Assembly: GCA_913020435.1 (NCBI GenBank)
Contig: CAJVZZ010000012.1
Location: forward strand, 1 to 64,000
Source: an uncultured Flavobacteriales bacterium
GTDB taxonomy: Bacteria; Bacteroidota; Bacteroidia; Flavobacteriales_G; Salibacteraceae
DNA length: 64,000 nucleotides
Direction: 5' to 3'
A program made the position numbers and the translations under genes. The notes under the pieces are model-generated. The model did not search any database. It worked only from the letters and a program-made list of their open reading frames with translations, and was not told where the DNA came from. Below are positions 1,251 to 9,741 of this stretch, piece after piece. The number at the start of each line of letters is the position of its first letter. Within the stretch, counting starts at the first letter, position 1.

Positions 1251-4200
1251 TTACCGAGCTACCACCCACTCCTTTGCATTCTTGAACGCTAAAATCCAAG
1301 GACTTACATCTTCTTGTTTTTTATCGTTTGGATAATAGCCCCAATTCCATGGAAAAATTGATCGTTCAAAATGAGGCATGATTGCTAAATGCCTTCCATC
1401 CTTACTTGCAATACCCGCAACGTTATAATCAGAGCCGTTTGGGTTGGCTGGATAACTGTCATTAATGTACTTCCCAATTACATTATAGTTGGATTCCGCT
1501 TCTGGAAGATGGAACTTTCCTTCTCCGTGTGCTGCCCAAATACCCATTTTAGTTCCAGACAAACTTCCCAGCATTACTGAATTGTTTTCTGGTACTTCAA
1601 TGGCCAAAAAGCTTGATTCGAATTTACCAGAAGTGTTGTGCTCCAGTTTTGGGTGTTCGCTGTGTTCTGGATAAATTAAACCTAACTCGCCCATTAGCTG
1701 ACAACCGTTACAAATTCCAAGTGAAAGCGTATTTGGTCGAGCGTAAAAGTTATCTAATGCAGCTTTTGCTTTTTCATTGAACATAAATGCGCCTGCCCAT
1801 CCTTTAGCAGAACCCAATACATCAGAGTTGGAAAATCCACCTACAAAGGCAATCATATTAACATCAGACAAGTCTTCTCGACCGGATATTAGATCAGTCA
1901 TATGCACATCTTTAACATCAAAGCCAGCCAAGAACATAGCATAAGCCATTTCTCTATCGCCGTTCACTCCCTTTTCTCGAATAATAGCAGCTTTTATTCC
2001 AGATGCTGTTTTTCGATTAGGATTCAATCCTAATGCATCATAAGTTCCCTTGAAATTTTGTGGGAAAATGTAATTCAGCGGAAATTTGTCGTGATTATTA
2101 AAACGTGAATCCGCATGCTCTTTTCCCGATTGTTTTTGATCTAACAAATGAGAAGTCTTGTACCACGTCTTTCTTAAAGTTGGAACATCAAGAACATATG
2201 CATTTGAACTCGTTTTAATTTCTACACTATTCTCATTATTTACAGAACCTATTATGGCATAGCTTGCATGCACGGAATCTAATGCTGAGCTTACCATTGC
2301 ACTGTTTTCTTTTTCAACTTGAATTATAATTCCAGCTTTTTCAGAAAACAACAATTTAATATCGTCTGTTGAATTCAATGCAGCTAAATCAACCGATAAA
2401 CCGATAGTATTCTCAGGGAAACACATTTCTAATAAAGTAGTGACCATTCCTCCAGCCGAAATATCATGACCTGCAAGAATTCTGTCATCCAGAATTAACT
2501 GTTGAACTACGTTAAATGTAGCTGCGAATTTTTTAGCGTCTTTAATTCTTGGTGCTTCATTACCCAGTTGATTTAGAATTTGAGCAAATGATGAACCTCC
2601 TAATTTGCAACCGTCTTCAGAAAAATCGATATAGATTAATTGAGAACCTATGATCGGTTGCAATACTGGCTCAACAACTTTCTTTAAATTACTTACCTCA
2701 CCTACAGCAGAAATAATTACTGTTCCAGGAGCATAAACAACTCCGTCTTTGTATTTCTGAGTCATAGAAAGTGAATCTTTCCCTGTAGGCACATTTAAGC
2801 CAAGCTCACAAGCAAAATCACTAATTCCTTTTACCGCTTCGTACAAGCGATAATTTTCGCCTTCTTGTTTTGCTGGCCACATCCAGTTTGCACTTAACGA
2901 AACTCCTTGAATTCCTTGTTCAATTGGCGCCCAAATCAGGTTGGTTAATGCTTCTGCTATGGAAGCTTGAGAACCTGCAATTGGATCAATCAAAGCACTT
3001 ACCGGAGAATGCCCTAGCGAAGTTGCAATTCCTTTTACTCCACGATAATCAATTGCCATTACTCCGACATTATTCAGCGGAATTTGTAATGGTCCAGCAC
3101 ATTGTTGTTTCGCAACACGTCCAGTAACACATCGATCTACTTTATTGGTCAACCAATCTTTACAAGCAACTGCCTCTAATTGTAAAACAGCATTTAAATA
3201 ATCTTGAAATTTATTCGGATTGGTTTCATAATTCAATTCAGCATAAGTCGCTGTCTTTGAACTATCTTCTAATATCGTTTTTGGAGAAGAGCCAAACATA
3301 TGCGCCAAATCCCAATCCATTGGGTTCGTTTTCGTTTTCTTGTTTTCGAAAACAAAGCGTTTGTCATTGGTTGTTTCTCCTACTACATAAATTGGGGCTC
3401 TTTCGCGATCTGCAATTTTGGTCAGTAATTCAATATCTTTTTCTCGAATCACTAATCCCATTCGTTCTTGAGATTCATTTCCGATTATTTCTTTGTCAGA
3501 TAATGTTGGATCTCCAACAGGCAATTTGTTAACATCGATTCTTCCACCGGTTTCTTCAACTAACTCAGACAAACAGTTAAGGTGTCCACCTGCGCCATGA
3601 TCGTGAATAGAAACAATTGGGTTTTTGTCCAATTCGGCCATCGCACGCACAGCATTATAGACACGTTTTTGCATTTCAGGATTAGAACGTTGAATAGCAT
3701 TCAGCTCAATTCCACTTGAGAATTCGCCAGTTGCAACGGAAGACACAGCTCCGCCACCCATTCCTATTCGGTAATTATCACCACCCATTACAACGATTTT
3801 ATCGCCTGGGTCTGGAATATCTTTTAGTGCCTCTCCTTTCTTACCGTAACCAATACCGCCAGCTTGCATGATTACTTTATCGAAACCAAATCGCTTATCC
3901 CCTTCTTTGTGTTCGAAGGTTAATACCGAACCATTAATAAGTGGTTGACCAAATTTATTTCCAAAATCTGACGCTCCATTTGATGCTTTGATCAAAATAT
4001 CCATTGGAGTTTGATACAACCATGCACGCTCATCCATTCCGTTTTCCCAAGCTCTATCTTCGGTCAATCGAGAATATGCGGTCATATAAACTGCTGTTCC
4101 TGCCAAGGGCATAGAACCTTTTCCACCGGCCATTCTATCTCGAATTTCACCTCCACTTCCAGTGGCAGCTCCATTAAAAGGCTCAACCGTAGTTGGGAAG

Positions 4201-4949
4201 TTATGTGTTTCTGCTTTTATTGAAATTACACTATCAAATTCTTTGGTTTCAAAAAAGTCAGATTCGTCTTGGCGTTTTGGAGCAAATTGCTCAGCGCGGG
4301 GACCTTCAACAAAGGCAACGTTATCTTTATATGCGGATACTACTCTATTTGGGTTATCGGCGGTGGTTTTTTTAATCAGCTTGAATAATGAGGACGGCAT
4401 TTCCTTTCCGTCAATAATAAACTGACCGTTGAAAATCTTATGGCGGCAATGCTCAGAATTTACCTGAGAAAATCCAAAAATCTCGCTATCCGTTAATTTT
4501 CTTTTAAGTTGAGTAGCTACTCCTTTTAGGTATTCAATTTCTTCATCACTTAATGCTAGGCCTTCCTGCTTATTGTAGCTTGAAATATCATCTATGTAGA
4601 GAACCTCCTCTGGTTTTTTGTCTATTGTAAATAGATCTTGCCCAAGCTCCGAATACTTTACCTGAAGCATTGGATCAAAAGTCGGATTTTCAATAGTGAA
4701 GGAAAAAAACTCCTCAATTCTAAAAATCCCATGGACTCCCATGTTTTGAGTGATTTCAACTGCATTGGTACTCCAAGGAGTAATCATTTCTTTTCGAGGC
4801 CCCACAAAAATGCCAATAAGTGTTTCCTCCTCAACTGGTTTTGCACCACTAAATAGCCACTCGAGCTTTGGTAGATCGGAGCTATCTACATCATTTTGAA
4901 ATCCTACAGCAAAAATTTTGTCTTCACCAGACGAAAAGAACTTTATCAT
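1251..4949 (-). CDS. purL: Phosphoribosylformylglycinamidine synthase, single-chain PurL-PurQ
   Basis: This enzyme makes FGAM from FGAR, glutamine and ATP in purine synthesis. At 1232 residues it is the large form, with a PurL synthetase body followed by a class I glutamine amidotransferase domain. Visible marks are the N-terminal FGFSQVNSEHCRHKIF motif, KAETHNFPTTVEPFNGAATG, a DHGAGG motif in the first AIR-synthase half and HDISAGG in the second. The amidotransferase domain starts near residue 970, carries nucleophile Cys in LGICNGCQLMG, and ends with PHFERSIFPWNWGY. The length and architecture match the gammaproteobacterial and Bacteroidota form, so no separate purQ or purS is needed. The start codon lies about 55 bases downstream of a TAACTTTG box. 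Confidence 0.97.
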   Translation of the reverse strand: MIKFFSSGEDKIFAVGFQNDVDSSDLPKLEWLFSGAKPVEEETLIGIFVGPRKEMITPWSTNAVEITQNMGVHGIFRIEEFFSFTIENPTFDPMLQVKYSELGQDLFTIDKKPEEVLYIDDISSYNKQEGLALSDEEIEYLKGVATQLKRKLTDSEIFGFSQVNSEHCRHKIFNGQFIIDGKEMPSSLFKLIKKTTADNPNRVVSAYKDNVAFVEGPRAEQFAPKRQDESDFFETKEFDSVISIKAETHNFPTTVEPFNGAATGSGGEIRDRMAGGKGSMPLAGTAVYMTAYSRLTEDRAWENGMDERAWLYQTPMDILIKASNGASDFGNKFGQPLINGSVLTFEHKEGDKRFGFDKVIMQAGGIGYGKKGEALKDIPDPGDKIVVMGGDNYRIGMGGGAVSSVATGEFSSGIELNAIQRSNPEMQKRVYNAVRAMAELDKNPIVSIHDHGAGGHLNCLSELVEETGGRIDVNKLPVGDPTLSDKEIIGNESQERMGLVIREKDIELLTKIADRERAPIYVVGETTNDKRFVFENKKTKTNPMDWDLAHMFGSSPKTILEDSSKTATYAELNYETNPNKFQDYLNAVLQLEAVACKDWLTNKVDRCVTGRVAKQQCAGPLQIPLNNVGVMAIDYRGVKGIATSLGHSPVSALIDPIAGSQASIAEALTNLIWAPIEQGIQGVSLSANWMWPAKQEGENYRLYEAVKGISDFACELGLNVPTGKDSLSMTQKYKDGVVYAPGTVIISAVGEVSNLKKVVEPVLQPIIGSQLIYIDFSEDGCKLGGSSFAQILNQLGNEAPRIKDAKKFAATFNVVQQLILDDRILAGHDISAGGMVTTLLEMCFPENTIGLSVDLAALNSTDDIKLLFSEKAGIIIQVEKENSAMVSSALDSVHASYAIIGSVNNENSVEIKTSSNAYVLDVPTLRKTWYKTSHLLDQKQSGKEHADSRFNNHDKFPLNYIFPQNFKGTYDALGLNPNRKTASGIKAAIIREKGVNGDREMAYAMFLAGFDVKDVHMTDLISGREDLSDVNMIAFVGGFSNSDVLGSAKGWAGAFMFNEKAKAALDNFYARPNTLSLGICNGCQLMGELGLIYPEHSEHPKLEHNTSGKFESSFLAIEVPENNSVMLGSLSGTKMGIWAAHGEGKFHLPEAESNYNVIGKYINDSYPANPNGSDYNVAGIASKDGRHLAIMPHFERSIFPWNWGYYPNDKKQEDVSPWILAFKNAKEWVVAR

Positions 4950-5132: not shown

Positions 5133-6428
5133 ATGCTTTTCAATATTTCATACCTTATTTTCTGGTGGCTTATCCTTTTGTGGATACTTCCAAAAATTGG
5201 ATTGGTTAAAAACCTTGGTTTTTCTAACCTCCAAATTCAATGCTTATTTTCACTGAAAGTATTAGTTGGAATAGGGTTTACACTTTTCTATCAATACTAT
5301 TATGGTTCTCGCAATACAACAGATGCGTTTCGCTTTTACGATGATGCTAATTTACTTTTTGAAGTTTTTAAAAACGACCCGCTCACCTATTTCAAAGTTA
5401 TATTCGGAATAGATATGCAATCAGATACCGTTATCAATGCAACAGATCAGCTCAACAACTGGTACAAAAATCATTTGCATGGAGTTTTTAATGACAACAT
5501 GACTATCATTCGGTTTAACGCTTTCGTTCGACTTTTCAGTTTTGATGTTTATCACATTCATACCTTAATTATCAATCTAATGAGCTTTCTTGGTTTAGCG
5601 GCGCTAGTTAATGCAATCAAAAACTTTGGAGTAAACTCTAAACTTACCTTCTTAAGTATTTTGATTTTCCCTGGAATAATTTTTTGGAGTTCGGCTGTGC
5701 TAAAAGAAAGTCTTTTGGTTTTTGTAATGGGTTTTCTTACTTATTACGGAATCAAAACAATTTCGTCCTTTAACCTTAAACACTTAGGCTTTCTAATATT
5801 ATTCTTCCTATTGGGACTCACTATAAAAAGCTACGTGGCTATTTCTTTAATTGTTGGTTTTGGACTGCTTTTAGCTTTTAAATTTTCTTCCCTGAAATCA
5901 AGAATATTAATACCTACATACCTAGTGCTTGGAACAGCGTCAGTTATTCTTATGGACTTTCTTTTAAAGTTAAGAATACCCGAGCGTTTTTATCAAAAAC
6001 AGCACGACTTCCTGAATGAAATAGCGCTATCGAAACCAGGATCTGCATTTGAATTATTTATATTGGAACCAGAATGGAAAAGCCTCTTAGTAACTGCTCC
6101 GAATGCACTTTCCAACGCATTATTTCGTCCATTTATATGGGAGGCGCATTCCACAATAAGTTTAATAGCTTCTTTTGAGATTCTACTATTAATTTCATTG
6201 GCAATTATTGCGTTTTGGTTCAGAAAGCAACTTAATAATCAAAGTACTCAAATCATTGCTGCTTTTTCAATTTCTGCAGTTATTATCTTGTTAATAGCTG
6301 GCTGGGTCACTCCCGTTTTTGGTGCTTTGGTTCGATATAAAATACCTGCGTTAATTCTTATACTTCTTATTCTTAACATTTTGGTGGATACCAAAAGAAC
6401 TACTTTTATTCAAAAATGGTTAAACTAA
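5133..6428 (+). CDS. Polytopic membrane protein, possible GT-C type glycosyltransferase
   Basis: The product has 431 residues with about 10-11 hydrophobic segments spread over its length. After two N-terminal segments comes an acidic stretch (TTDAFRFYDDANLLFEVF, about residues 60-77) and a long loop holding NDNMTIIRFNAFVRLFSFD. Polytopic proteins with an early acidic loop followed by many helices are often lipid-linked sugar transferases or polysaccharide polymerases, but no diagnostic motif is clear and this is inference. The 3' end overlaps the next gene by 13 bases, so the two are translationally linked. Confidence 0.55.
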   Translation: MLFNISYLIFWWLILLWILPKIGLVKNLGFSNLQIQCLFSLKVLVGIGFTLFYQYYYGSRNTTDAFRFYDDANLLFEVFKNDPLTYFKVIFGIDMQSDTVINATDQLNNWYKNHLHGVFNDNMTIIRFNAFVRLFSFDVYHIHTLIINLMSFLGLAALVNAIKNFGVNSKLTFLSILIFPGIIFWSSAVLKESLLVFVMGFLTYYGIKTISSFNLKHLGFLILFFLLGLTIKSYVAISLIVGFGLLLAFKFSSLKSRILIPTYLVLGTASVILMDFLLKLRIPERFYQKQHDFLNEIALSKPGSAFELFILEPEWKSLLVTAPNALSNALFRPFIWEAHSTISLIASFEILLLISLAIIAFWFRKQLNNQSTQIIAAFSISAVIILLIAGWVTPVFGALVRYKIPALILILLILNILVDTKRTTFIQKWLN

Positions 6429-7912
6429 AACTCCTTATTCTTTTTGCGGTAACTGCCTCTGCGCTTCTCTCTTGTATAAAGCACAAAGACGCAGACTTAA
6501 TAGTTCATAATGGAACGATTTACACTTGCGATTTGGAGTTTAGCTCTTCGCAAGCAATGGCCATAAAAGACGGTGTTGTTTTAGAAATTGGTCCTGAACA
6601 TCAAATTCTAAACAAATACACTTCGACTGAGAAACTAGACTTAAAAAAGAGAACAGTTGTTCCTGCATTTTTCGACGCCCATAGCTATTTACTTGCAAAA
6701 ACTTTAAAAAGCAATGCAATTGAATATGTCAATTTGACTAAGGATCAGCTTGATAATTCAAAAATCAATTACATCTATAATGCTCCAATAAGAGAATTAC
6801 GGCAACTCGATTATCCTGACTTTCAATATGTAGCGCGATCCTCTTCTGGCAATACAATAAAAGTAGACCCCTTAACTTTCAACTCGGTTTTTGAAGCTGC
6901 GCGAAATGAGAGTCTCCTGATCTTTGATAAAGATTCGATTATTAAGGTCATCGATTATATAGAAAAAAGTCAATTAAATCAATTCTACAGTAAAAATTTA
7001 TCCTCAGAACTATTCAAAAATGGATATTCTGGTTGTACTAGTTTCGGTGTTAATTCCATCACAGCAGAAAAAATAATTACAGAAAATAACGCTACTTTTT
7101 ACCATCAATTGGTATTGGGTGGGAATCCTGAAAACTTTCAGTGGTTAACTAAAACGGGAAGACTCGATTCTGGATCTATTCATTTAAAAGGTCTTAGTTA
7201 TTTTATTGATGGTGGATTTGGGGAAAAAGAAGCGCTTTTGAAGGCGCACTATGTTTCTGATGTTACTTATGGTAAACTATACGCCGATTCTTTTCCATTG
7301 TATGAACTTCCAGAGTTGTGCGCTTCGTTAAACTTTCAATTGATATTCCATACTTATGGAGATTCAGCCTTTGCATTAGCGTCAACACAAATGGGGAAAG
7401 CCCTGAAATCTGTAAACGATAATCGCTGGCGAATTGAGCACAATCAACTGGTTCATCAGTCTGATTTCAAGAAATTAAAACCCTACAGTATTCTACCCAG
7501 CGTTCAGCCAACTCAGGCGACAATGGATAAAGGAAAAGTTGGTTCTATTATCGGAGAAAACCGAGATTGTTCCAGCTATAATTTTTCAGAACTATACACT
7601 CAAAATCAATTCCTTGCCTCTGGCTCATTGTTCCCAATTGGAGAGATGAATCCTTTTGAACAATTCAAAGCTTTAATCAAATCAGGCGAATGTTCTTATC
7701 CCATAGAAAGAAAACACGCTCTTAAAGCACTAACGATTTGGCCAGCTATGTTAGCTTTTTTTGATGATAAAACAGGAAGTTTAGAAGCCGGAAAAAATGC
7801 AGATTTTATTGTTTTAAACATTGACCTAATGAAGGCTCCTTTTGACAAAACAAGTGATACTCAAGTGCAGAGGACATATATTAAGGGGAAATTAGAGTTT
7901 AGCGTTAATTAG
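6416..7912 (+). CDS. Amidohydrolase family 3 (YtcJ-like) lipoprotein, probably catalytically inactive
   Basis: The product has 498 residues. A lipoprotein signal ends at Cys20 (SALLSC). The body follows YtcJ/NfdA-like amidohydrolases: LIVHNGTIYTCD at the start, the usual beta-sandwich return with GKNADFIVL at the end, and a TIM barrel between. Two family histidines are kept, in HTYGDSA (His312) and WRIEHNQ (His342). Three key positions are not: the HxH metal motif reads HSY (residues 89-91), the carbamylated-lysine position in the VKxFxDG-type motif is Ser261, and the GSDxPV aspartate is Leu405 (GSLFPI). I infer a pseudoenzyme or a binding protein in the periplasm or outer membrane. It overlaps the upstream membrane-protein gene. 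Confidence 0.75.
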   Translation: MVKLKLLILFAVTASALLSCIKHKDADLIVHNGTIYTCDLEFSSSQAMAIKDGVVLEIGPEHQILNKYTSTEKLDLKKRTVVPAFFDAHSYLLAKTLKSNAIEYVNLTKDQLDNSKINYIYNAPIRELRQLDYPDFQYVARSSSGNTIKVDPLTFNSVFEAARNESLLIFDKDSIIKVIDYIEKSQLNQFYSKNLSSELFKNGYSGCTSFGVNSITAEKIITENNATFYHQLVLGGNPENFQWLTKTGRLDSGSIHLKGLSYFIDGGFGEKEALLKAHYVSDVTYGKLYADSFPLYELPELCASLNFQLIFHTYGDSAFALASTQMGKALKSVNDNRWRIEHNQLVHQSDFKKLKPYSILPSVQPTQATMDKGKVGSIIGENRDCSSYNFSELYTQNQFLASGSLFPIGEMNPFEQFKALIKSGECSYPIERKHALKALTIWPAMLAFFDDKTGSLEAGKNADFIVLNIDLMKAPFDKTSDTQVQRTYIKGKLEFSVN

Positions 7913-7974: not shown

Positions 7975-9741
7975 ATGTACGATCATGTAAAACGCTTATT
8001 CGATATACCACGCCACCAACAAAAAGCTTATCCTCAAAAAGATGCTTTTACGGCAAAAATCAATGGGAAATGGGAGCCTACTTCTATTGACACAATGCTT
8101 AGCGAGGCCATGCAAGTGAGTAAATCGCTTTTGAAACTGGGCATTGAAAAAGGAGATAAAATTGGCTTGATCTCAAATAACCGACCTGAATGGATATCTA
8201 TGGATTGCGGAATTCTGCAGGTTGGCGCAGTTGATGTACCTATATACCCAACGATATCAGCAGAAGATTACAAATATATTTTTAATGATGCTGAACTAAA
8301 ATATTGCTTTGTTAGCGATATGGAGCTGTTTGAAAAAGTAAACTCTATTAAAGATCAAGTTCCTAGCTTAAAGCATATTTATTCTTTTGAGCAATTGGAA
8401 GGAGTCGATCATTGGACAAAATTTCTTGCTGAAGGTGAAGGAAAAGAAGACGCTGAAGTTGAGTCCATAATGAATTCCATTAGTGAGAATGATTTAGCCA
8501 CACTTATATATACTAGTGGAACAACAGGTGTTCCTAAAGGAGTAATGCTCTCTCATAAAAATTTAGTGAGTAACGCATTGTCCTGTATTGAGCGATTACC
8601 GGTAGATAGTAATGGGAAGTCTTTAAGTTTCCTCCCTATATGTCACGTATATGAGCGTATGTTGATCTATTTATATATGATAACAGGAGTTTCTGTCTAT
8701 TTCGCTGAATCGATGGAAACGATTGGTGACAACCTCAGAGAAATAAAGCCTGAAGTTTTTACAGCAGTTCCTCGACTCCTCGAAAAGGTTTATGATAAAA
8801 TTGTTGCTAAAGGCTCAGAATTAACTGGAATAAAAAAAGTACTCTTCTTTTGGGCGCTTTCACTTGGAGAAAAATATGAACCTTATGGTGCAAATGGAGC
8901 TTGGTACGAATTTCAATTGAGCATTGCACGGAAAATTATATTTAGTAAGTGGAAAGAAGCTTTAGGTGGTAATGTATTGGCCGTTGCTTCTGGTTCTGCT
9001 GCTTTATCGCCAAGATTGGCTAGAGTATTTTTGGCTGCTGGAGTACCGATAATGGAGGGTTACGGATTAACAGAAACATCTCCTGTTGCAACAGTAAATG
9101 CATGGCACGATAAAGGATTAATGCTCGGCTCAGTTGGTAGAATTATCGACGGTGTAGAGGTGAAAATTGCAGCTGATGGAGAAATCCTGATTAAAGGACC
9201 GAACGTAATGCAGGGTTATTACAACCAACCTGAAAAAACAAAAGAAGTACTTACTTCAGATGGTTGGTTCTCGACAGGAGATATTGGAGAATTTATTGGT
9301 GATAGATTCTTAAAAATAACAGATCGTAAAAAAGAAATTTTCAAAACATCAGGTGGAAAGTATATCGCTCCCCAACCTATGGAAAATAAATTCAAAGAAT
9401 CTAGGTTCATTGAACAAATCATGGTTATCGGTGAAAGTCAGAAGCATCCTGCCGCATATGTGGTTCCTAATTTTGAGTTTCTAAAAGATTGGTGTGTCAG
9501 AAAAGGTATTGATTTTGGATCTAACTCCGCTGCAATAAAAAACGAAAAAGTTATTGCACGGATCAAAAAAGAAATTGACAAATTGAATGAGGGATTTGGA
9601 AGCTGGGAACAAGTCAAAAAGTTTGAATTAGTAGATTCAACTTGGTCCGTAGAAACTAAGGAGTTAACCCCTACTCTTAAACTCAAGCGAAAGTTTATAA
9701 TGGAAAAATACAAAGACCTTTTTGAGAAAATTTATGCTTAA
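7975..9741 (+). CDS. Long-chain acyl-CoA synthetase (AMP-forming)
   Basis: This enzyme activates fatty acids to acyl-CoA through an acyl-adenylate. At 588 residues it belongs to the FAA1/FadD15-like branch common in Bacteroidota. The P-loop-like motif LIYTSGTTGVPKGVMLSH starts near residue 177, the adenylate motif GYGLTETSP near 361, the STGDIG hinge near 433 and DRKKEIFKTSGGKYIAP near 449. The last contains the Lys-rich loop of the mobile C-terminal domain. No signal peptide is present, so it is cytoplasmic or membrane-associated. It is the first gene of an overlapping run with the M1 peptidase and the LpxH-like enzyme. The exact acyl chain preference cannot be read from the sequence. Confidence 0.9.
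   Translation: MYDHVKRLFDIPRHQQKAYPQKDAFTAKINGKWEPTSIDTMLSEAMQVSKSLLKLGIEKGDKIGLISNNRPEWISMDCGILQVGAVDVPIYPTISAEDYKYIFNDAELKYCFVSDMELFEKVNSIKDQVPSLKHIYSFEQLEGVDHWTKFLAEGEGKEDAEVESIMNSISENDLATLIYTSGTTGVPKGVMLSHKNLVSNALSCIERLPVDSNGKSLSFLPICHVYERMLIYLYMITGVSVYFAESMETIGDNLREIKPEVFTAVPRLLEKVYDKIVAKGSELTGIKKVLFFWALSLGEKYEPYGANGAWYEFQLSIARKIIFSKWKEALGGNVLAVASGSAALSPRLARVFLAAGVPIMEGYGLTETSPVATVNAWHDKGLMLGSVGRIIDGVEVKIAADGEILIKGPNVMQGYYNQPEKTKEVLTSDGWFSTGDIGEFIGDRFLKITDRKKEIFKTSGGKYIAPQPMENKFKESRFIEQIMVIGESQKHPAAYVVPNFEFLKDWCVRKGIDFGSNSAAIKNEKVIARIKKEIDKLNEGFGSWEQVKKFELVDSTWSVETKELTPTLKLKRKFIMEKYKDLFEKIYA

Follow-up and report, generated by a model that had tools for sequence, protein, structure and literature searches.

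NfdA is a YtcJ-like amidohydrolase of the Amidohydro_3 family. In another member of this family (PF07969), the metallo bile salt hydrolase BwBSH1, six residues (H110, H112, K373, H441, H474, and D583) are predicted to be the metal ligands and the bridging carboxylated lysine, and a preprint reports that alanine at any one of them abolished activity, as it did at His196, the proposed carbonyl polariser (PMC13081902). Other amidohydrolase-superfamily proteins are described as inactive. CRMP-4 is reported to have no enzyme activity: two of the six metal residues are left and the bridging lysine is replaced by leucine, although the cavity is kept, and its N- and C-terminal ends jointly form a beta-sandwich capping the TIM barrel (PMC4051505). 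Similarly, an inactive dihydroorotase (PyrC') is needed for the assembly of Pseudomonas aspartate transcarbamoylase, to go by a title cited in PMC4581275.

Pseudoenzymes are usually viewed as single end states. Here, we describe intact, apparently dead full-length, shorter, and absent forms of an amidohydrolase at one chromosomal locus in one bacterial family, with two losses on a species marker tree.

The locus and its protein

The window is a stretch of 64,000 nucleotides of contig CAJVZZ010000012.1 (assembly GCA_913020435.1), from an uncultured Flavobacteriales bacterium (genome G000). Its relevant features are as follows.

1251..4949, minus strand: purL-type gene (named by eye), conserved upstream flank
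5133..6428, plus strand: polytopic membrane protein of 431 aa, without Pfam or NCBIfam family, whose gene overlaps the lipoprotein gene
6416..7912, plus strand: predicted YtcJ/Amidohydro_3-type lipoprotein pseudoenzyme of 498 aa (from the ORF, PF07969 match, alignment, and dN/dS)
6416..6475, plus strand: signal peptide and lipobox ALLSC with Cys20 (lipidation by pattern)
6476..6667, plus strand: putative N-terminal beta-sandwich part, residues 21-84 (domain extent deduced from the superfamily)
6680..6688, plus strand: HxH reduced to H89-S90-Y91 (sequence reading and alignments)
6851..6853, plus strand: Asn146 at the family's conserved DGH histidine (alignment)
7196..7198, plus strand: Ser261 in place of the bridging (carboxylated) lysine (alignments)
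7349..7351, plus strand: His312, metal-ligand position kept (alignment)
7439..7441, plus strand: His342, metal-ligand position kept (alignment)
7628..7630, plus strand: Leu405 in place of the metal-ligating aspartate (alignments)
7706..7909, plus strand: C-terminal region, residues 431-498, which should hold the C-terminal beta-sandwich part (conserved positions)
7975..9741, plus strand: AMP-binding, acyl-CoA synthetase-type gene, conserved downstream flank

The lipoprotein ORF runs from ATG to stop over 498 codons, with zero internal stops. Its product scores 85.3 bits against PF07969 (cut-off 29.7), which places it in the family by profile, the match involving protein residues 241-492 and only positions 211-469 of the 472 in the profile. 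The nearest solved structures, 3icj and 3igh, are uncharacterised metal-dependent hydrolases. An AlphaFold2 model built on a two-sequence alignment reached a pLDDT of 29 and a pTM of 0.19, and no relatives that would deepen this alignment were found in the viral contigs scanned. Within G000, the best Amidohydro_3 match is the window gene itself (77 bits, as compared to 277-331 for complete intact locus copies and 215 for a split one in G027), and the window protein used as query matched only itself in the genome, so that a second, intact copy was not found in G000. At the N-terminus, Cys20 lies in an ALLSC lipobox, as expected at the pattern level for a bacterial lipoprotein. The lipobox pattern used for scoring fits 10 of the 11 eroded copies introduced below and 39 of the 50 other proteins aligned; the lipobox cysteine column holds a cysteine in 11/11 and 48/50 of them, respectively.

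Loss of active-site residues

HMMER alignment to 3icj and 3igh sets residues of the window protein opposite the H-x-H motif, the GVKLF-DG lysine, the two later histidines, and the STDSPI aspartate. The corresponding contexts are D87-A-H89-S90-Y91, S261 in GLSYFIDG, H312 in FHTYGD, H342 in WRIEH, and L405 in GSLFPIG, and profile alignments of the intact and eroded groups to 3igh yield the same correspondence. At the six metal-site columns, where the dinuclear set is HxH, K, H, H, and D, the window protein thus reads H, Y, S, H, H, and L, as do all four genomes examined in its genus. A sequencing or alignment error behind these substitutions is ruled out, as four genomes share them and the profile alignments concur. 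A first-pass annotation of this DNA had already read HSY, Ser261, and Leu405 at these positions, together with the kept H312 and H342, and the ORF, the HMMER alignment, the 61-row alignment presented below, and the profile alignments all bear it out. Its list of losses included neither the DGH histidine, which is present in 50/50 intact proteins and is Asn146 in the window protein, nor the GWDQNxW stretch, which is gone as well. The Asn146 column probably corresponds to catalytic His196 of BwBSH1.

The window protein may thus be classified, from its sequence, as a pseudoenzyme, i.e. a homologue of an enzyme family which has lost essential catalytic residues. Because each of the six equivalent residues, as well as His196, is essential in BwBSH1 and three of the six are changed here, we regard the protein as very probably catalytically dead, and it would be devoid of activity.

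Intact and eroded orthologues

The order-level search covered 42 genomes, 37 of which contain a relative at E <= 1e-10. At the class level, matches at E <= 1e-30 came from 170 of 395 genomes, and 24 proteins were taken from among the best 30 loci. The 61-row alignment consists of these 37 order-level and 24 class-level proteins, the G006 copy, which is cut at a contig edge, having been left out by length. As the class set was drawn from the best 30 loci, it may well have missed eroded copies in other parts of the class. All six residues (H, H, K, H, H, and D) are present in 50 of the 61 aligned homologues, including all 27 rows from outside f1, the family of the window bacterium, and the 11 homologues without the full set all belong to f1. 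The order search included 35 f1 genomes: 22 carry an intact copy at the locus (that of G027 being split by a frame break), 11 an eroded copy, and one (G034) none, while G023 could not be judged because its contig ends at the membrane-protein gene. Two more intact rows, G041b and G004, are not locus copies.

The gene order at the locus is shared: purL, membrane protein, amidohydrolase, in some cases a gene with a CAP domain (assigned to PF00188 in both copies scanned), and acyl-CoA synthetase. The CAP gene lies within 190 nt after the enzyme in 22 of 24 intact loci, and the longest frames of the two genes overlap in 18 of these 22. The acyl-CoA synthetase gene directly follows the eroded gene in G000, G039, G040, G041, G015, G035, and G016, and the CAP gene is kept beside the eroded copy of G014. 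A CAP search conducted with one query in 15 genomes produced matches in G014 (through one TAG), G030, G031, G032, and G033, and none in G000, G039, G040, G041, G015, G016, G034, G035, and G013, nor in intact G011. In G034, the membrane-protein and acyl-CoA synthetase frames are 53 nt apart, with nothing between them.

The shared locus indicates that eroded copies are direct orthologues of the enzyme rather than a paralogous side branch. The window protein thus belongs to the YtcJ/Amidohydro_3 family (PF07969) by descent, since intact members at the conserved locus are its orthologues. Orthologues with full motifs, which the first-pass annotation had counted against a pseudoenzyme, do occur at the same locus in other genera. 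Their existence does not imply an active window copy, however: intact orthologues at the same locus point to the loss of an ancestral enzyme.

Graded erosion of the barrel

Eroded copies are 498, 498, 499, and 495 aa long in the window genus, 505 aa in G015 (where HxH is kept and the lysine and aspartate are lost), 504 aa in G035, 511 aa in G014, 381 aa in G016 (from a start that we chose), and 333 aa in both G031 and G032, the 250-aa copy of G013 running off its contig. The series thus goes from 495-511 aa to 381 aa, then to 333 aa, and finally to absence in one genome (G034). As a yardstick for retention, we took the positions, 81 in total, at which at least 48 of the 50 intact proteins agree. 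Retention common to all four members of the genus is complete before the barrel (4/4) and at the C-terminus (10/10); within the barrel, 4/27 positions remain in the first half and 28/40 in the second. The corresponding numbers for positions kept by all three short copies are 4/4, 3/27, 3/40, and 6/10, and 6 of the 10 C-terminal positions are kept in all seven long eroded copies. N32, G59, and P83 before the barrel, as well as Cys20, are kept in all seven long and three short copies. When columns occupied in 90% or more of the intact set are considered, the window protein lacks 50 (mainly in the barrel), G016 lacks 171, and G031 and G032 lack 213 each. Pfam matches of the G016 and G031 proteins are located near their C-terminal ends only, and the 381-aa and 333-aa forms have lost most of the six residues and carry large barrel deletions.

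The first-pass annotation had suggested a pseudoenzyme maintained for binding; the features common to all eroded forms are the lipobox cysteine plus both end regions, and the pocket is not among them. Since the ends of CRMP-4 form a barrel-capping beta-sandwich and the end regions are kept here, we infer that the anchor and the sandwich persist while the barrel is trimmed. H89, H312, D265, R337, R339, E341, and Q344 are unchanged in all seven long eroded copies, and H342 is kept in six of them; the seven unchanged residues leave room for a binding pocket in these long forms.

Selection on the eroded gene

Within the genus, dN/dS ratios (Nei-Gojobori) are 0.245 between G000 and G040, which carries the nearest relative of the window protein (86% identical), 0.123 between G000 and G039, and 0.107 between G040 and G039, synonymous sites being saturated in the three pairs involving G041. 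The 333-codon pair G031-G032 has a dN/dS of 0.108. For the same three genus pairs, neighbouring genes yield 0.14-0.16 (membrane protein) and 0.04-0.08 (acyl-CoA synthetase). With an open frame and a dN/dS of 0.11-0.25 in three pairs, a pseudogene is ruled out for the window gene. The first-pass annotation had considered that the intact 498-codon frame is not that of a decayed gene, and the open frame, together with the dN/dS measured against the nearest and the next relative, agrees with this view. Selective maintenance of a pseudoenzyme that bears a lipoprotein signal, as it proposed, is likewise supported by the lipobox, the lost residues, and the dN/dS values.

The ratio of differences in the gene to differences in the acyl-CoA synthetase gene has a median of 3.40 in the genus (5 pairs) versus 1.84 for intact copies (12 pairs, range 1.40-3.30), although one intact pair was as high as 3.30 and the pairs do not count as independent. 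Constraint on the eroded gene of the genus thus looks relaxed, yet present.

Number of losses

An RpoB search in 29 genomes yielded matches in 24, which were used for the tree (leaving out G014, G036, G010, G021, and G001; G005 and G007 contribute incomplete rows). This tree groups nine eroded or gene-less genomes (97/96) and places G031 and G032 as sister to intact G030 (100/99). It requires two changes, and one change suffices in 0% of 200 bootstrap trees. In the acyl-CoA synthetase tree (28 rows), G015, G034, and G016 fall together with the genus (100/99), and the placement of G035 is unresolved. By contrast, the amidohydrolase gene tree joins all 11 eroded copies, with 85/81 support (83% of 200 bootstrap trees); several of these copies form long branches flagged by the program as possibly false joins. 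As we trusted the RpoB tree over a gene tree with long branches, a single origin of all eroded copies was set aside. The gene tree still counts against two origins.

By parsimony, the ancestor shared by the window bacterium and its relatives (genera g1, g5, g6, g7, g11, and g12, all in one family) had already lost the metal centre, or minimally its lysine and aspartate. We assume a single loss inside this larger eroded clade, parallel losses being possible.

The upstream membrane-protein gene

The stop codon of the upstream gene (5133-6428) lies past the start of the lipoprotein gene, resulting in an overlap of 13 nt (the first-pass annotation had noticed that the genes overlap), and the same substitutions are found beside the same membrane-protein gene in the other three genus genomes examined. 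That annotation had also proposed a special coupling between the two genes, which our results do not support. The overlap amounts to 10-14 nt in the genus and G035, and the gene also overlaps intact enzymes, by 4 nt, in G005, G007, G018, G021, G022, G024, and G028. Seven of the 11 eroded loci and 15 of the 24 intact ones have it on the same strand at most 300 nt upstream. It exists without the amidohydrolase in G034 and G001-G003, and no relative was found at E <= 1e-5 in G031, G032, and G014 (the latter genome being 54% complete), all of which carry eroded copies. Thus, the coupling with the membrane protein is old and is not tied to the dead form.

The window membrane protein matches no family in Pfam and NCBIfam. 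Among 18 members, one matches DUF2142 and two match SPOB_a weakly, while a search of the PDB with their profile returned nothing significant (best matches to ribosomal proteins, E 0.14, then to a DUF3367 protein, E 0.23). In three genomes without the amidohydrolase, the gene is located near glycosyltransferase-like genes, as read by eye. Our guess is that it may encode a GT-C type glycosyltransferase.

Interpretation

The most likely explanation, which we consider probable, is that the window protein is a catalytically dead pseudoenzyme, under purifying selection and maintained because its anchored beta-sandwich has a role in the envelope that needs no catalysis. Its ancestor, to which it would be linked by direct orthology, would have been an active, lipid-anchored, dinuclear-metal amidohydrolase of the YtcJ/Amidohydro_3 type. 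Loss of the metal centre would have left a protein without hydrolysis, whose role in the envelope, most likely binding or structural, would rest on the anchored sandwich formed by the N- and C-terminal parts, the former barrel being a dispensable and shrinking part. Lipidation, envelope location, fold, and non-catalytic role are all predicted for the window protein. Conceivably, although we hold this with some doubt, the sandwich had a conserved non-catalytic envelope function of its own before catalysis was lost, and two f1 lineages in which catalysis was no longer needed would then, independently of each other, have dropped the active site and, subsequently, stretches of the barrel, down to a 333-aa lipoprotein lacking the metal centre.

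Some observations count against the sandwich explanation. The retention of H89 and H312 in all long copies and of H342 in all but one makes a remnant metal or ligand site, or even residual activity, possible. In addition, the faster divergence and the absence of the gene in G034 would also fit a slow decay toward loss.

For the long eroded forms, the three histidines might build, with D265, R337, R339, E341, and Q344, a one-metal or metal-free pocket which, in a receptor or sensor, would still bind the ancestral substrate but no longer cleave it. That all these residues but H342 are unchanged in 7/7 long copies, those from other genera being just 29-34% identical to the window protein, is what such a pocket would predict. 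Yet we find it unlikely, as even the genus has lost most of the first barrel half (4/27 positions kept), including GWDQNxW and DGH, and the 381-aa and 333-aa forms, with their large barrel deletions, do without most of the six residues. The same three histidines could hold one metal in an enzyme of altered chemistry relying on another general base. We consider this very improbable: four residues have gone (the lysine, the aspartate, the second HxH histidine, and the histidine of DGH), the eroded clade shows no shared replacement acid or base at those positions, and single changes at equivalent residues kill BwBSH1 (PMC13081902).

Alternatively, function may have been lost with an abandoned pathway, the gene being on its way out and frames still open as little time has passed. 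Divergence relative to the neighbouring gene, which is faster than in intact copies, the graded truncation, and the absence of the gene in G034 would all fit such slow decay, as would the nine eroded-clade genomes in which the one CAP query found no match. It is nevertheless difficult to reconcile with a dN/dS well below 1 in every finite pair, with full-length frames in all four genus genomes and matching stop-free 333-aa frames in G031 and G032, and with a loss older than several genera, making it rather improbable. A role for the anchored sandwich thus remains our preferred explanation.

A link to the BAM canopy of Bacteroidota, which comprises surface lipoproteins, was also considered and rejected, as the word 'amidohydrolase' is absent from the main texts of the two papers on it and BamH and BamM are described with other folds (PMC12611786). 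A literature search on inactive amidohydrolase, YtcJ, or Amidohydro_3 forms and bacterial lipoproteins, covering titles and the beginnings of abstracts and mostly excluding subscription papers, returned no title on the eroded group.

If the sandwich did have such a function before catalysis was lost, a bacterial enzyme is being turned stepwise into a non-enzyme while its sandwich is kept. The series of forms makes it possible to test directly which portion of the protein is responsible for its non-catalytic role. In addition, the label 'amidohydrolase' at this locus may name a protein incapable of the usual enzyme chemistry.

Comparison with known systems

The window protein shares with YtcJ-like/Amidohydro_3 enzymes (3icj, 3igh, NfdA, and BwBSH1) the profile family and the order of elements, and it has intact orthologues at the same locus. 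It differs by substitutions at three of the six residues essential in BwBSH1 and at the DGH histidine, and by the 50 columns that it lacks relative to most intact copies, mainly in the barrel.

PyrC' is cytosolic and, to our knowledge, neither CRMPs nor PyrC' is a lipoprotein. Like the window protein, CRMPs (dihydropyrimidinase-like proteins) belong to the amidohydrolase superfamily and are reported to have no enzyme activity (PMC4051505). They are, however, neuronal and cytosolic Amidohydro_1 proteins, whereas the window protein is a predicted bacterial lipoprotein of the Amidohydro_3 family with graded loss of the barrel; the part of PMC4051505 consulted describes no barrel deletion in CRMPs. 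PyrC' is likewise a bacterial amidohydrolase-superfamily protein and is required in an inactive form, judging from the title cited above, but it has a known partner, while the window protein has a lipoprotein signal. By analogy, the window protein may work like CRMPs or PyrC', as a former enzyme serving a non-catalytic role.

Gene neighbourhood of intact and eroded amidohydrolases

Intact amidohydrolase genes, which encode all six metal-site residues, are followed in 22 of 24 loci by a gene for a CAP-domain secreted protein, and the two genes mostly overlap. One of these loci, L079 from genome G027, provides an example:

L079:9823-10485, CAP-domain secreted-protein gene, downstream of the intact enzyme

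When searched with one CAP query, nine genomes of the eroded clade yielded no match. Taken together, these gene arrangements suggest that the intact amidohydrolase and the CAP protein form one functional unit. The G027 amidohydrolase itself (L079:8192-9634, motifs intact) looks split, as a 480-aa frame is followed by a short frame extending the profile match; this appears to reflect either a frameshift or an assembly error.

The purL neighbour of the window (1251-4949) has full-length matches of 64-96% in the genus and in G015, G016, G005, and G007, but matches most other examined loci at only 22-25% over partial length; there, a shorter type (743 aa in L079) occupies the same place. The 431-aa membrane protein of the window (5133-6428) has no Pfam or NCBIfam name, and in three genomes of another family (loci L094, L095, and L096) a member of its family lies near glycosyltransferase-like genes. 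At the G016 locus, a large opposite-strand ORF (L051:5346-7385), resembling by eye a FeoB-type transporter, separates the membrane-protein gene from a 381-aa eroded copy. In G034 (L093), the gap from the membrane-protein gene to the acyl-CoA synthetase gene contains no amidohydrolase gene.

Synonymous divergence along the probable pseudoenzyme gene

Between the window's probable pseudoenzyme gene (compared over 6476-7909) and its 86% identical relative in L032, synonymous divergence is uneven: dS is 0.63-0.70 for codons 21-240, compared with 0.13-0.16 for codons 241-498. The sequences look as if the 3' half had undergone recombinational exchange.
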